A DNA stretch of 46,625 bases from Alphaproteobacteria bacterium (GTDB lineage: Bacteria; Pseudomonadota; Alphaproteobacteria; GCA-2731375). Under the pieces are notes generated by a model. It saw nothing but the letters and a program-made list of their open reading frames with translations. It was not told the DNA's origin and searched no databases. The stretch covers positions 1 through 46,625 of the forward strand of contig VGEV01000009.1 in assembly GCA_016869175.1 (NCBI GenBank), read 5' to 3'. The position numbers were made by a program, and so were the translations under genes. Shown in pieces: positions 32,314-45,441 of the stretch (position 1 is the first letter of the stretch; each line of letters begins with the position of its first letter).

Positions 32314-33621
32314 TCAGGGCGGTTCCGCCAGCAGCCGGTCGACATAGTGGCCCTGGAAGGTCGGAATGCCGAGATCGTGGCCGAAACGCACCGCCTCCGG
32401 CTCGCCGCAATGCGCCAGCACGACATGCGCCAGCACGACATGCGCCGGCCCGACCGCTTGCACCTGCTGACGGAGCCTTGCCAGCGCCCGCTGACCGACC
32501 CCGCCGATCAGCTGGGTCTGCCAGTGCAGCTTGTAGAAATCGCAGCCCAGCTCAGGATGGCACAACAGCGGGAAGGCGTCGCAGCTGAGACCGTCCAGCA
32601 GCACGCGATGGCCGCGTGTCCGCAGAAAGACCTGCGCACGATGGAACTGCGCCAGGTCGGCCAGCGCATCCAACGCCTGGATTTCGATGATCAGCGGCCG
32701 TTGCGTCTTCAGCCGGATGTCCCGGTCGAACGCGAGGAACAGGTCGCTCGTCACGCTGGCGACGTTCAGGTTGAGGGCCAAGGTCTGGCTTTCCAGATTG
32801 TTCTCTCCCGGCAGCAGCCGCAGCATGCGCCGATCGAGCAGCACGGTCAGGTACTGGAACAGCCAACGATTGGCGAACAGGTTGACATCGGGCAGCAGCC
32901 GGCGGCCGAGCGCGCCGATGGCGACGTAGATCTGGGTGAACAGCGGCTGTGGCCGCTGTTGCGCCACGATCGCAGCCGCCGACTGCCGACGCACCAGTTC
33001 GCGCAAATCGATGCTCGCCAACAGGTTCTCGACGCGCACCAGACGCGGCAGATCGACCGCCGGCTGGCGCGGCACCGTTTCCACCGAGCGATCGACCAGG
33101 ACGTGGCCGGGACGCGCCATCGGCTCCGGCCCGTGGTCCGGCATGAACGAGGGTTCCGGGGACGTCGGGTAGGGGTTCGCTTCGATTGCCCGTGCGGTGT
33201 GCAGGCTTTGCGCCAGGGCCAGCAGCCCGGCATAGTCGCGTTCCAGTTCATACCAGGTGCAGAACGGGTCTTCCGGCGGCGCCTCGTCCTTGAGCAGTGG
33301 ATCCTCGCTGAACAGGAAGCGCAATTGCAGCACGCCGTGGTCGATCTCGGCGACGCTCGCACCCTTCACGATGAGCACGAGGTCGCCCGTGCGCGTCTGG
33401 AAGCAGCCGCCGTCGAACTTGCGGGTCAGAGCGTCCAGCGTGCTGAAGGCGACGCGCACATACTGCTCGCGCCGATTGTAATGCTGCAGCCGGCTGATGT
33501 GCACATGGACGGCCCGACGGCCGACGGTGTGCCGAGCCAAACGCTCCACATAGTCGAGCAGACGTTCCTCTTCCTTGGGCAGATTTGCGGCCTGGCGCGG
33601 AATGTGCGTTGTCCCCGGCAC
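32314..33621 (-). CDS. Degenerate GGDEF/EAL-like protein (c-di-GMP effector candidate)
   Basis: About 435 residues. Residues 1-100 resemble a truncated GGDEF/PAS-like fold (AFSTLDALTRKFDGGCFQTR). The C-terminal 230 residues follow the EAL order: a start near FTQIYVAIGALGRRLLPDVN, then LALNLNVASVTSDLFLAFDR, LIIEIQALDALADL, VLLDGLSCDAFPLLC, CDFYKLHWQ, and LAHCGEPEAVRFGHDLGIPT followed by FQGHYVDRLL. The catalytic EAL glutamate and the DD metal pair are not preserved, so enzymatic phosphodiesterase activity is unlikely and it may be a c-di-GMP-binding or scaffold protein. The GTG at 33621 is chosen because the frame above it (to 33816) overlaps the divergent kinase gene; TTG near 33650 is an alternative. 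EAL assignment is by pattern and moderate. Confidence 0.55.
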   Translation of the reverse strand: MPGTTHIPRQAANLPKEEERLLDYVERLARHTVGRRAVHVHISRLQHYNRREQYVRVAFSTLDALTRKFDGGCFQTRTGDLVLIVKGASVAEIDHGVLQLRFLFSEDPLLKDEAPPEDPFCTWYELERDYAGLLALAQSLHTARAIEANPYPTSPEPSFMPDHGPEPMARPGHVLVDRSVETVPRQPAVDLPRLVRVENLLASIDLRELVRRQSAAAIVAQQRPQPLFTQIYVAIGALGRRLLPDVNLFANRWLFQYLTVLLDRRMLRLLPGENNLESQTLALNLNVASVTSDLFLAFDRDIRLKTQRPLIIEIQALDALADLAQFHRAQVFLRTRGHRVLLDGLSCDAFPLLCHPELGCDFYKLHWQTQLIGGVGQRALARLRQQVQAVGPAHVVLAHVVLAHCGEPEAVRFGHDLGIPTFQGHYVDRLLAEPP

Positions 33622-33695
33622 TTTGCTACCGTCGATGGTATGGCCCAACGGGTGGCTCTCGCCGCTCGCGGGCGGCGACCGGAATCCTGCGGGAG

Positions 33696-34592
33696 ATGGC
33701 GTTAGTTTTGCGTGAACGCCGGGCGACGGCGGCGCCGCAAGCGGCGGTCCGCTTTCGGGGGTGGCGCGGCGCCATCGCGCTGGCGGCTGATGCGCGCCTT
33801 TTGGCGCTGCTGGCACGCCTGGCGCCGGGCTGGCCGTCCGCGCCGGGGCGGGCGCCGGTCCGCGCCAGCGTCGAGGTGACGCGGGCCGGCAGGCGTTTTC
33901 GCATCGAGACCAGCGCCTATGCGGCGCCCGACTACGGCTTCACCCGGTATCTGCCGGCCGCCAACGGCACGCTCGGCGTGCTGATCGGCAGCTACATCGC
34001 GGCTGATCCGGAAACGATCGGTTTGCATGCGGCGGCGCTGGCATTCGGCGGGCGGGCGGCGGCGCTGCTGGGCGACAGCTTCGCCGGCAAGAGCACGCTG
34101 GCGTTGACCCTGGCGGCGGTCGGAGGCCGGTTGCTCGCCGACGACCGGCTGGCGGTTCGCCTGCAAGAGCCGCCCGTGGTGTTCGGCTTCGGCACCGCGG
34201 CGAAGTTGCGCTTGCCCTATCCGGCATGGGCGAGCGCGCGCTTCCGGGCGATGGTGGTCCGCCATGGCGCCTGCTTGGCTGCCAACCTGCTGGCGCTTGA
34301 CTTGACGGCCAGCCGGAGCTGCGGCTTCGCCGAGGCCGTGCTGTTATCGGCGCTGTTCGTGCTGGCGCGTGATCCCGCGCATGTCGGGCCGCCCGCGACG
34401 GAACGGCTGGGGCGCCCGGAAATCATGCACCGGCTCATCCAGCAGATGTTCGCGCCGCACCTGCCGCCCTCGGCGGTGCTGGCGGCGGCGCGGAAGCTGG
34501 CGGAGGCCGCCCCCGCCTATCGCTTGCGCTACCGCGAGGCCTCGGCCGTGCCGGCTCTGCTGCGACGTTGCCTGGCCGAGGGCCAGCCGTGA
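33696..34592 (+). CDS. HprK-related kinase-fold protein (HPr-rel-A type)
   Basis: 298-residue protein related to the C-terminal P-loop domain of HPr kinase/phosphorylase. Walker A reads LLGDSFAGKSTLAL (lysine 132), followed by GGRLLADDRLAVRL with the acidic residues of the metal site. It lacks the HPr-binding N-terminal domain; the N-terminal 100 residues are family-specific. Such proteins occur with a PqqD-like protein and a nucleotidyltransferase in exopolysaccharide or sorting loci (the HPr-rel-A system), whose biochemical role is not established. GGGAG immediately precedes the ATG. Overlaps the PqqD-like gene by GTGA. Confidence 0.72.
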   Translation: MALVLRERRATAAPQAAVRFRGWRGAIALAADARLLALLARLAPGWPSAPGRAPVRASVEVTRAGRRFRIETSAYAAPDYGFTRYLPAANGTLGVLIGSYIAADPETIGLHAAALAFGGRAAALLGDSFAGKSTLALTLAAVGGRLLADDRLAVRLQEPPVVFGFGTAAKLRLPYPAWASARFRAMVVRHGACLAANLLALDLTASRSCGFAEAVLLSALFVLARDPAHVGPPATERLGRPEIMHRLIQQMFAPHLPPSAVLAAARKLAEAAPAYRLRYREASAVPALLRRCLAEGQP

Positions 34593-34855
34593 GCCGCTAT
34601 CGCCGGATCGGCCCGGCCTGCGAGACCGCGATCGATGGCGAGCTATTCCTGGTGTTGAACAACCAGGACATCGTGCATCTCGACCCCCTGGCTGCGGCGC
34701 TGTGGCGCCTGCTGGACGAGCCGATGGCCGAGGAGGCGATCCTGCGGGTCTTCGCCGCCGCGTTTCCCGCCACTCCCAGCCAGCAACTGAGCGGCGATCT
34801 GGCGACGGCAATCCGCTTGCTTGAAGCGGCCGGCGCGCTGGTGCGCGAAGACTGA
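34589..34855 (+). CDS. PqqD-family protein (HPr-rel-A system)
   Basis: 88-residue protein with the PqqD fold: FLVLNNQDIVHLDPLAAALW (the ligand-like DIVHLDP-x-AAAIW strand and helix), a central EEAILRVFAAAF helix, and a final ATAIRLLEAAGALVRED. PqqD proteins bind short leader peptides of ribosomally made peptide precursors. It starts with GTG on the overlap with the HprK-like gene. A convergent 49-residue membrane protein gene ends just 5 bases beyond its stop codon. Confidence 0.72.
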   Translation: MSRYRRIGPACETAIDGELFLVLNNQDIVHLDPLAAALWRLLDEPMAEEAILRVFAAAFPATPSQQLSGDLATAIRLLEAAGALVRED

Positions 34856-34860
34856 GCGTC

Positions 34861-35010
34861 TCAGGCCGGGCTCAGTACCTTCTTGACGCCGATGCCCAAC
34901 AGCGCCAGCACGGCCAGCAAACTCAGCAATGCGACATAGGGATCGCCATAGGGCAGGCCGCGAAACAGCGCAACCCACAGATCCCAGGTACGAAAAACGA
35001 CGACGTCCAT
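34861..35010 (-). CDS. 49-residue single-span membrane microprotein behind a c-di-GMP riboswitch
   Basis: Open reading frame of 49 codons with an AAGGGAGAA Shine-Dalgarno 9 bases before the ATG at 35010. The N-terminus MDVVVFRTWDLWVALFRGLP is aromatic-rich. It is followed by YGDPYVALLSLLAV and the rest of one hydrophobic span of about 17 residues, then a KKVLSPA tail. That topology suggests insertion with the tail on the cytoplasmic or periplasmic side, not predictable here. No homologue is recognised. There is no PEP-CTERM, TAT or Cys/Gly-rich leader signature. It is directly downstream of a c-di-GMP-I riboswitch and is the only gene that switch can control, apart from any readthrough. The strong ribosome site and the riboswitch argue that this small gene is real. 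Confidence 0.75.
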   Translation of the reverse strand: MDVVVFRTWDLWVALFRGLPYGDPYVALLSLLAVLALLGIGVKKVLSPA

Positions 35011-35017
35011 TGCGCGG

Positions 35018-35115
35018 TTCTCCCTTCGGCGGCCCCGCTACCCGCCTTGTCGCCAAGGCGGGCCGGAGGCTTTGCGTCCCGCCGTTACCGGCGGTTTGCC
35101 TGTTCGTGGCACGCT
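35018..35115 (-). ncRNA. Cyclic di-GMP-I (GEMM-I) riboswitch upstream of the membrane microprotein
   Basis: On the minus strand the order GGCAAACC, a P2 stem CCGCCG-GUAA-CGGCGG with a GNRA tetraloop, GGGACGCAAAGCCUCCGGCC, a P3 stem CCCGCCUUG-GCGA-CAAGGCGGG, and GGGUAGCGGGG matches the c-di-GMP-I riboswitch class point for point. It resembles the Vibrio cholerae Vc2 aptamer, including its GGCAAACC and GGGACGCAAAGCC blocks. The closing P1 helix was not drawn with confidence. The ribosome site AAGGGAG begins right after the aptamer 3' edge, which suggests control of translation initiation rather than a terminator. It lies in the 132 bases between the nucleotidyltransferase gene and the 49-codon gene. 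Confidence 0.92.
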
Positions 35116-35142
35116 GTGCCCGCAATGCTGGTGTAATATGGA

Positions 35143-36246
35143 TCACAGCTCTTTCCGGGGTGTTAAGGCCGTCCGTGCGGTCGGCGCGACCGGCCGGCCG
35201 GTCTGCGGACGCAGCAGTCCGTGGAGGCGGAGGCGATAGCGTGCCAGCACCGTCGAGGGCTGCGCCGTTAGCAGGGCTTCGCGCCGGATGCTGGCGAGGG
35301 TCGAAAGCGGGTGCGGGTAGAGCAGGGCGAGCTGCGCGCGCGCGCGGCGATATTCGCCCCGGCACCAGGCAGGCAAGGCGTCTGGTCGCGCGGCCAGCGA
35401 CGCAGGCAGCAGGGCGGCCGGCAGGCCCAGGTCGGCAAGCAAGGCGAAAAACGCGGCGACCGGCCGGGCAACCCCGCCCGCCGCCGCCAGCCGAACCAGT
35501 TCGGCGGCGTCGATCGTCTGACCGAAGCGCGCCAGCAGTCGGCTGGCATCGATCAGCTTGGTCACCGCCGGCGGGCCGAACAGGTCGCGAGCGGCATGCG
35601 TCGCGCAGAGCAGGAGGGCGTGCGTCGGTGCCGGCACCAGGATCGTGCCTGCCGGCGTTGCCGCCGGCCGGGCGGCCGCGAACACCGCCTGGGCCGGCAG
35701 GGCACGGTGCACCGGCCAAGCATCGGCCTGCTGATGCAGGTCGATCTGGCTCACCCCATCCGCGCTGGCCAGAGGCAGGAAGCTGGAATCGTGCACGAAG
35801 CCCCAGCGCGAACGGGCGCGAGGCGGTACGAAATCGAGGCCGCCCGCCCGCAGCAGGGCCAGCAGCCTGTCGCGCTCGGCCGCCCCGACCAAGAGGTCGC
35901 AATCGCTCATGCCGCGGCAATCGGCATCGTCATAGAGCGTGTAGGCGGCCCCCATGCCTTTCAGGCAGACCACCGGAAGGCCGGCTTCGGCCGCCCGTCG
36001 CGCCCAGCCGAGCCCGCCGGTCCGGGCCAGCCGGTTGAGCAGGCGGCTTTGCCGCGCTGCCGCCGCTGGAACCATCGGGGCGCCGTCGAGCAGGGTCCAG
36101 CCCGACAACAGGTGGTCGGCCATGGCAGGCGTCAGCAGCGCGGCAAGTCGACCGGCCCACTCCGCCGGCACGGCCCCGGGGCCGACGTCGCCACCCAGCA
36201 GCGCCGCCCAGGCCGCGCGGATCGACGCCCGCACGGAATCAACCAT
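35143..36246 (-). CDS. Nucleotidyltransferase-fold protein (NTP_transf_5-like), HPr-rel-A associated
   Basis: 367-residue protein of the nucleotidyltransferase superfamily branch found with HprK-like and PqqD-like proteins. The characteristic block VVCLKGMGAAYTLYDDADCR followed by GMSDCDLLV (near residues 90-120) holds the DxD-type metal site of that family. The rest is helical. It is encoded on the minus strand, opposite to the kinase and PqqD-like genes, and lies upstream of the c-di-GMP riboswitch. Its transcript could continue into the riboswitch and the small membrane gene. Substrate unknown. Confidence 0.75.
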   Translation of the reverse strand: MVDSVRASIRAAWAALLGGDVGPGAVPAEWAGRLAALLTPAMADHLLSGWTLLDGAPMVPAAAARQSRLLNRLARTGGLGWARRAAEAGLPVVCLKGMGAAYTLYDDADCRGMSDCDLLVGAAERDRLLALLRAGGLDFVPPRARSRWGFVHDSSFLPLASADGVSQIDLHQQADAWPVHRALPAQAVFAAARPAATPAGTILVPAPTHALLLCATHAARDLFGPPAVTKLIDASRLLARFGQTIDAAELVRLAAAGGVARPVAAFFALLADLGLPAALLPASLAARPDALPAWCRGEYRRARAQLALLYPHPLSTLASIRREALLTAQPSTVLARYRLRLHGLLRPQTGRPVAPTARTALTPRKEL

Positions 36247-43317: not shown

Positions 43318-45441
43318 ATGCCGTTGGTGAGCGAGACGACGACTGCGAGCACGATCGGCCAGCGGCCGGGCCAAGGCGTCTGGCTGGCTGGCGTGGCGCT
43401 GCTGGCGGTTGCTCTGGCCGGGGTCCTCGCGGTGCTGCAGTTCGTCGCCGGCGAGCGGTCGCGCGATCTGACGCAATGGCAGATCCGGCTGGGCATCGTC
43501 GCCGATGGCCGCGCCGCCGCGGTGGCCGGTTGGTGGCAGCAGCAGTTCCACACGCTGGCCGAGATCGCCGAAAACGCCTCGGTGCAGCTCTACATGAGCG
43601 AGTTGGCGCTGGCGGGCGGCGACCGTGCCAAGGTCACTGCCGAGACGGCGCAGGCCGACTACCTGCGCAACCTGCTGCAGGCGGTGGCCGAACGCAGCGG
43701 CTTTGCCGAACCGACGCCGCCGCACGCGCTGCCCGCCAACGTGCAGCGACTGAGCGGTGCCGGCTTGGCGCTGAGCGACATCGATGGCGGCTTGTTGGCC
43801 GCGACGCCGGGCATGCCGCCCATCGAAGGCCTGCTGAAACAACTGGTGCAGCGTACGGCGCGCGGCGAGCGCGGGTTTGTCGATTTGCATGCCGGCAGCG
43901 ACGGCCGGCCAAGCCTGGTCTTCCTGCAGCCCGTCTTCGCGCTGCAGGGCGGGCGCAAGGAAACGGACGTGGTCGGCTTGGTCCTTGGGCTGCGCCCGGT
44001 TGGCGCCGATCTGTTCGGCCGGCTGGCGCAGCCGGGTGAGACCGAACGCAGCGCCGAGACGCTGTTGATCCGCGCCGCACCGGGCGGCGTCGAATACGTG
44101 TCGCCGCTGAAGGATGGCACGCCGCCGTTGACCCGCACGCTGGCCCGCGACACCCCCGATCTGGACGCGGCCGCGGCGCTGCGCCAGCCAGGCAGGTTCG
44201 GCGTCGGCCGAGATTATGCCGGTGCCGAGGTGCTGGCGGTGAGCCGCCGTCTGTCCGGGCCGCCCTGGCTGTTGCTCCGCAAGGTCGATCGGGCCGAAGC
44301 CCTGGCGGAAAGCGACCGCCGCTTGGCCGTGTTGCTGACCGTGCTGCTGCTCGCCATCGCCTTGGTGGCGGCGGCCCTGGTGGCGGTCTGGCGCCATGCC
44401 AGTTCGCGCCGCGCCAATGCGGCGGCCGACGCGCTCGGCCGGTCCAATGCCCGGCTGGAGGCGTTGAGCCGGTTTCTGCGCCTGGTCAGCGACGGCCAGC
44501 CCACGCGCATCGCGGCGGTCGACGACCAGGGCCGCTTCACCTTCGCCAACCGTCAGGCCGCGTTCGCCGCCGGCGCCTCGGCCGAGGCGATGCTCGGCAA
44601 GTCTCTGGCCCCGGTGCCGGGCCCGGCGGCGGCCCGGCCCTACGAGGAGATGAACCGCCGTGCCTTGACCAGCGGCGCGGCGCAGTCCGAAATCCGCACC
44701 ATCGACGATGCCGACGGCCAGCGCCGGGTGTTGCGGGCCGAGCACCTGCCGTTGCCGGCGGAGGGTAGCCGGCGTGGCGTCCTGATGATCGAGGAAGACA
44801 TCACCCGTCTGGTGGAGGAACGCGAGCGGCGCGAGCGAGCGCTGGGCGAACTGATCGCCACGCTGGTGGCGGTCGTCGACCGCAGAGATCCCTACTCGGC
44901 CGATCATTCCAACCGGGTTGCCGAGGTGGCCGACGCCATCGCCCGGGAGATGCAAGTGGCGGAACTCGATCGCACCACCGCGGTGATCGCCGGCCGCCTG
45001 ATGAACCTGGGCAAGATTTCGGTGCCGAGCGAGGTGCTGACCAAGAACGAGCCGCTGACCGAGGCCGAGCGCCGGCTGGTGCGCGAGAGCGTGCAGGCCA
45101 GCGCCGATCTGCTGGGCAACGTCGCCTTCGACGGCCCGGTCGTGGAAACCTTGCGGCAGTTGCAGGAACAATGGGATGGCGGCGGCCCGCGCGGCCTTGC
45201 CGGGGAGGCGATCTTGTTGCCGGCGCGGATCTTGGCGGTGGCCAACGCCTTTGTTGGCATGGTCAGCCCGCGGGCCTACCGGCGGGCGCTCAGCTTCGAT
45301 CAGGCAGCGCAGCAATTGCTGAGCGAGGCCGGGACCCGGCTCGATCGCCGCCCGGTCAGCGCATTGCTGCACTTTCTTGAGAATCTGGGCGGTCGCGGCC
45401 GCTGGGCGGGCTTCGCGGCCGCGCCTCAGGCGGCGCAATAG
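43318..45441 (+). CDS. Membrane PAS/HD-GYP-like protein without canonical metal ligands
   Basis: 707 residues: span near 22-45, a periplasmic sensor region (about 46-335), a second span (about 338-360), a PAS domain (RIAAVDDQGRFTFANRQAAF, about 395-490) and a C-terminal HD-GYP-like domain. The HD-GYP landmarks are eroded. The HD pair expected in LLHDIGKI reads LMNLGKI, and the HHE-x-x-DGxGYP block reads LQEQWDGGGPRG; only DPYSADHSNRVAEVADAI keeps its histidine. It should not hydrolyse c-di-GMP but may bind it or act as a receptor. ATG 43318 has AAGGGA three bases upstream; a GTG at 43327 is an alternative. Ten bases separate it from the phosphatase gene. Confidence 0.72.
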   Translation: MPLVSETTTASTIGQRPGQGVWLAGVALLAVALAGVLAVLQFVAGERSRDLTQWQIRLGIVADGRAAAVAGWWQQQFHTLAEIAENASVQLYMSELALAGGDRAKVTAETAQADYLRNLLQAVAERSGFAEPTPPHALPANVQRLSGAGLALSDIDGGLLAATPGMPPIEGLLKQLVQRTARGERGFVDLHAGSDGRPSLVFLQPVFALQGGRKETDVVGLVLGLRPVGADLFGRLAQPGETERSAETLLIRAAPGGVEYVSPLKDGTPPLTRTLARDTPDLDAAAALRQPGRFGVGRDYAGAEVLAVSRRLSGPPWLLLRKVDRAEALAESDRRLAVLLTVLLLAIALVAAALVAVWRHASSRRANAAADALGRSNARLEALSRFLRLVSDGQPTRIAAVDDQGRFTFANRQAAFAAGASAEAMLGKSLAPVPGPAAARPYEEMNRRALTSGAAQSEIRTIDDADGQRRVLRAEHLPLPAEGSRRGVLMIEEDITRLVEERERRERALGELIATLVAVVDRRDPYSADHSNRVAEVADAIAREMQVAELDRTTAVIAGRLMNLGKISVPSEVLTKNEPLTEAERRLVRESVQASADLLGNVAFDGPVVETLRQLQEQWDGGGPRGLAGEAILLPARILAVANAFVGMVSPRAYRRALSFDQAAQQLLSEAGTRLDRRPVSALLHFLENLGGRGRWAGFAAAPQAAQ

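Follow-up and report, generated by a model that had tools for sequence, protein, structure and literature searches.

The locus and its aptamer

The stretch of DNA analysed here (46,625 nt, hereafter the window) is a polysaccharide locus with Wza-, Wzc- and EpsL-like genes. The features on which the analysis is centred are as follows.

35025–35110, minus strand: c-di-GMP-I (GEMM-I) riboswitch aptamer (RF01051, 62.4 bits, E 5.9e-10, complete model)
35105–35109, minus strand: 5' strand of helix P1, CC-A-CG, with proposed pairing to CG-AA-GG at 35028–35023 (anchored pairing count over 67 loci)
35020–35024, minus strand: Shine–Dalgarno (SD) sequence GGGAG (from the sequence), the first two G residues being the proposed 3' partners of a P1 extension
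34861–35010, minus strand: 49-aa single-span membrane protein MDVVVFRTWDLWVALFRGLPYGDPYVALLSLLAVLALLGIGVKKVLSPA (ORF, profile matches, one-long-helix model)
35152–35166, minus strand: weak CtrA-like box TTAACACCCCGGAAA with 2 mismatches (p 0.055), located 56 nt upstream of the aptamer
34568–34855, plus strand: PqqD-like gene, converging on the 49-codon ORF
35143–36246, minus strand: NTP_transf_5 nucleotidyltransferase gene, upstream of the aptamer, with 32 nt from its stop codon to the aptamer

At 33585–36246, an HprK-like kinase, the PqqD-like protein and the nucleotidyltransferase are grouped around the switch. A degenerate EAL protein is encoded at 32314–33816 on the minus strand (PF00563, E 0.0032, below the cut-off) and is conserved in the corresponding locus of the relative G002; it is possibly a c-di-GMP receptor and not an enzyme. 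The gene at 43318–45441 on the plus strand, in the polysaccharide locus, encodes a protein ending in an HD-GYP-like domain (assigned by eye), the catalytic motif of which is disturbed.

The initial annotation placed a GEMM-I riboswitch on the minus strand and proposed an Infernal search with RF01051. According to the cmscan search with Rfam 15, RF01051 at 35110–35025 on that strand is the sole Rfam match in the whole window. The match covers model positions 1–87 of 87, and its 62.4 bits compare with a gathering score of 35. The place given previously (35018–35115) was correct, but its start and end are each a few bases off. The blocks that had been claimed were all located at the expected sites by reading the sequence, namely GGCAAACC, the GUAA-capped P2, GGGACGCAAAGCC, P3 and GGTAGCGGGG. 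When the short stretch alone was searched, the clan model listed was RF03167 (c-di-GMP-I-GGC) with 57.4 bits, just below its cut-off of 59, which is exceeded by the aptamers of some relatives. The two models agree in predicting a class I c-di-GMP aptamer.

The position equal to G20 of Vc2 is, by reading of the sequence, the first G of GGCAAACC. A G20A change lets class I switches bind cGAMP (PMC6274999). The A at this position that marks the cGAMP-binding GEMM-Ib type is thus absent from the window aptamer. The window shares with the RF01051 class the complete core, the GNRA-looped P2, P3, the G at the Vc2-G20 position and a gene directly downstream. Nothing essential differs; P1 of the window extends into the SD, a feature common to most of the relatives' switches. 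As judged from its sequence, the window riboswitch is an ordinary member of the class.

The 49-residue protein and its family

The AAGGGAG ribosome site noted right behind the aptamer was found as GGGAG at 35024–35020, and the ATG at 35010 follows 9 nt behind this SD and 14 nt behind the aptamer. The ORF has the 49 codons described (35010–34861). AlphaFold predicts a short helix at residues 3–14 and a long one at residues 22–46, with the PYGDPY motif in the loop between them (mean pLDDT 89), in keeping with the single membrane span proposed for it. A PDB fold search with this two-helix model gave no match. In Pfam/NCBIfam, the best match of the window ORF was PF13179 at E 0.21, below the cut-off, and the homologues all remained below the curated cut-offs. 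Weak matches of the small proteins to SecE, DUF3149 and DUF4006 were discarded as membrane-helix likeness.

A profile was built from eight small proteins (alignment A3) picked solely for their position behind relatives' c-di-GMP-I switches. In a search of the window's own genome, this profile ranked the window ORF first (E 0.0013), as the only significant match; the next one had E 1.25. Because the eight proteins were selected by their RNA, the match is an independent test. A broader profile, from which the window protein was excluded, matched the ORF at E 3.0e-13, though it includes proteins from G288 and G323 that were first found using a profile containing the window protein. The window ORF is, on this comparative evidence, a real gene. 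It runs head-on into the PqqD-like gene, and is therefore the sole immediate target of the switch. The convergent genes beyond the ORF and the conservation of the protein family behind like switches are consistent with the dedicated small membrane-protein target that had been proposed.

The family is marked by WxxW, about seven further residues, P[YFL][WG][DNS]P[YFHW][GVI]A and then one membrane helix (alignment A5). The window ORF belongs to this PxWxPxGA family according to the motif, the helix and the profile excluding the window protein, and its copy departs from the W and the G of the motif. Members occur in 13 of the 15 genomes of the window's taxonomic family, and within the genomes searched they are confined to Alphaproteobacteria. 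The five phylum-wide profile matches that were read look spurious; four came from outside the class. Wherever dS was computable, dN/dS among the relatives was 0.03–0.30, and the relatives' small proteins are therefore constrained as proteins.

The copies that bear a switch are those of the window and of G001, G002, G003, G005, G006, G007, G009, G010, G013 and G014. The G012 copy retains a partial switch, the contig end falling just inside the aptamer. Eleven relatives' copies thus carry or keep part of a switch, at least 10 with the switch found in front. In two cases the switch is kept and the ORF is damaged: it is frameshifted in G003 (L122), and its usual start ATG is changed to AGG in G014 (L063). 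Therefore, either the small gene is dispensable there or the assemblies are wrong. Eleven paralogues have no switch, comprising SPHGA-type copies in G005, G011 and G012 and eight WNPxGA/WDPYGA loci (L100, L101, L140, L142, L153, L154, L156 and L157). A CRP-like palindrome, TGTGA-N6-TCACT, precedes all eight of the latter, at 67–78 nt upstream in seven and at 225 nt in one. In the profile comparison, the window protein scored 31.5 bits with the WNPxGA/WDPYGA type and 18.3 bits with the SPHGA type, and is by this measure nearer to the former. The family appears to be undescribed so far, and both it and its recurrent pairing with a c-di-GMP-I switch are, from the sequence comparisons, new.

Switches of the relatives and proposed control of translation

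RF01051 was searched in 191 relatives, and 27 genomes matched, including all 15 of the window's taxonomic family. The genes behind 67 riboswitch matches were read regardless of the window ORF, and names outside Pfam/NCBIfam were assigned by eye. The genes include flagellins, a 136-aa CheY-like protein, ParA-like ATPases, Sel1-type-repeat-like proteins, a 76-aa protein and a protein of 55–61 aa with a single membrane helix, for example MLSSISFMFDTYWTLWTTLFPSIPFWSPHGAVMTLIIMAAVAVLVGKYCWTVFQRT. The initial annotation regarded so small a target as unusual. This holds only in part: in the 15 family genomes the switches recurrently precede the 49–61 aa family proteins and the 76-aa protein, alongside flagellins and CheY-like genes.

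The window's genome has two c-di-GMP-I switches, versus two to five in relatives of the same family, and both serve small ORFs. The other switch (L040, G000:C28:5409-5495, 74.2 bits) lies before a 93-aa ORF that stands behind a PagL-type lipid A deacylase-like gene (named by eye). At another locus (L082/L148, G006:C32), the aptamer match extends over about 183 nt and therefore seems to include an insertion of approximately 100 nt.

P1 takes the form CC-N-CG : CG-AA(A)-GG, in which GG is the start of the SD. The RF03167 model likewise contains P1 and closes it with a pair that uses G 35024, where the window SD begins. Both added pairs into the GG are possible in 41 of the 59 anchored loci, versus 27% for background dinucleotides; since the SD is conserved for ribosome binding, compensatory change or covariation can neither test nor prove the pairing. 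The 41 loci include the window and the SPHGA-type loci of G001, G003, G005, G007, G009, G010, G013 and G014. The distance from aptamer to start is 10–16 nt in 54 of the 67 relatives' loci, and thus P1 falls inside the 30S footprint. The outer pairs of P1 can reach the GG of the SD, so ligand binding would hold the SD. A scan of the locus for terminators gave no terminator-like site.

We therefore favour, with some confidence, an OFF switch over translation of the 49-residue membrane protein, which would act as a small modulator of a nearby partner. In the cell, c-di-GMP bound to the aptamer would stabilize it together with helix P1. The outer P1 pairs would then occupy the first G residues of the SD and block ribosome loading, and the protein would be made only at low c-di-GMP. 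The inner-membrane protein may in turn modulate a partner encoded nearby, for example the RegB sensor kinase, or surface-glycan export.

Vc2 is said, in the title of a 2018 report by Inuzuka, to mask a ribosome site distant from the aptamer. In this respect the two switches differ, the ribosome site being far from the aptamer in Vc2 whereas the window SD touches P1. They differ also in the target, which is a transcription regulator for Vc2 and a 49-aa membrane protein for the window switch. Vc2, before tfoY of Vibrio cholerae, is likewise a class I aptamer with translational control, and it is OFF when bound (PMC7371385), the mode favoured here for the window. Several observations count against the OFF model. 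Ligand-free folding of 11 leaders gave no consistent SD partner, masking or unmasking, and other bacteria have c-di-GMP-I switches of either direction. In G002, a hairpin lies in the 139 nt that separate the aptamer from the small ORF, so that the expression platform is a different one. The 11 switchless paralogues, the damaged ORFs in G003 and G014 and the motif departures of the window copy also weigh against it.

In an ON switch, the SD would be hidden by another pairing in the unliganded RNA and freed by c-di-GMP, and synthesis of the protein would coincide with the sessile, matrix-producing state. The surrounding polysaccharide locus would agree with such timing, and c-di-GMP-I switches do work in both directions across bacteria, oppositely even within V. 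cholerae (PMC6366702). In ligand-free folding, the SD is partly paired (about 0.5–0.6) with the early coding region. These partners, however, are not aptamer segments and vary among the relatives. The switch-to-start distance and the P1 overlap favour blocking, and the same layout precedes flagellins and a CheY-like gene in the relatives. The ON switch is accordingly rated as unlikely, though a serious competitor.

The short distance of 32 nt from the nucleotidyltransferase stop codon, and a sigma-70 scan that found no promoter-like site at the locus, would also suit an aptamer that is part of the nucleotidyltransferase mRNA and mainly affects its 3' end or stability, with the ORF as a by-product. 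The relatives' switches, however, keep the small ORF and the fixed distance in other contexts as well, and the small ORF is under purifying selection there. We consider this read-through very improbable.

CtrA-like boxes, RegB and a possible role of the protein

TTAA-N7-TTAA, which we take to be the CtrA consensus, occurs mostly 50–95 nt upstream of the relatives' aptamers (for example at L045, L057, L067 and L068). When no more than one mismatch is allowed, gap 7 gives 37 of 52 family loci (9 perfect), versus 3–16 loci (0–1 perfect) at other gaps. A DNA-binding region of CtrA is also encoded in the window's genome and shares 86% identity with a Caulobacter CtrA sequence. The boxes before most switches point to a division of labour, in which transcription would be set by one regulator and translation by c-di-GMP. 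The window box has two mismatches and p 0.055, and thus CtrA control of the window copy is doubtful.

Many of the relatives' c-di-GMP-I switches serve flagellins, and yet no match to flagellin (PF00669) was found in the window's genome, which is rated 100% complete. It follows that the small protein does not simply belong to the flagellum. The same result suits the ON switch, as a role in the motile state has no obvious object here. Together with the weak CtrA-like box and a number of switches at the low end of the two to five, it would also fit a relic, left in a lineage that lost flagella and controlling nothing of consequence. Against a relic, the aptamer is complete with its core and helices intact, the ORF is open and recognizable, and the degenerate EAL gene and the HD-GYP-like gene share the window. 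We give a relic the least credence of these explanations.

Under the favoured OFF switch, the gene neighbourhood offers a candidate partner. HprK-like and PqqD-like genes neighbour the WNPxGA/WDPYGA paralogues, as does RegB/RegA in several loci; the window copy has every one of them in its vicinity. RegB is found within about 6 kb of a family member in the window, G001, G002, G005 and G013, and RegA likewise in the same genomes except G001 (both names assigned by eye). In G002, the switch and the small ORF are followed by EAL-like, RegA and RegB homologues (35%, 73% and 59% identity). G002 thus combines the switch with RegB/RegA, and the window locus therefore matches the relatives' RegB/RegA-linked locus, with a switch in addition. 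MgrB and SafA, single-span membrane proteins of about 50–65 residues, modulate sensor kinases. The window protein resembles them in size, in its one membrane helix and in the position of its gene near a membrane sensor kinase (RegB), a likeness drawn from the neighbourhood. The linkage, the sole clue to function, weakly hints at a kinase or surface-export modulator.

The pairing of riboswitch and small protein is real, but it is a further case of a known kind. In the literature searched, we found no relevant paper on a c-di-GMP riboswitch with a small membrane protein or with CtrA, and the small-protein family has so far no name or model. The action of c-di-GMP often passes along a chain of proteins. 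In the present case, direct RNA control across a lineage appears to apply to a short, conserved membrane protein, with paralogues under other control, as the CRP-like palindrome indicates. The motile-phase genes of this lineage, including a small protein that tunes RegB or surface-glycan export, might conceivably be gated twice, with transcription turned ON by CtrA and translation turned OFF by c-di-GMP; we hold this to be a long shot. If it were true, one protein of 49–61 residues would link cell-cycle, c-di-GMP and redox signalling. The switch and its small protein form a compact, testable unit for the study of small membrane proteins in the c-di-GMP response.
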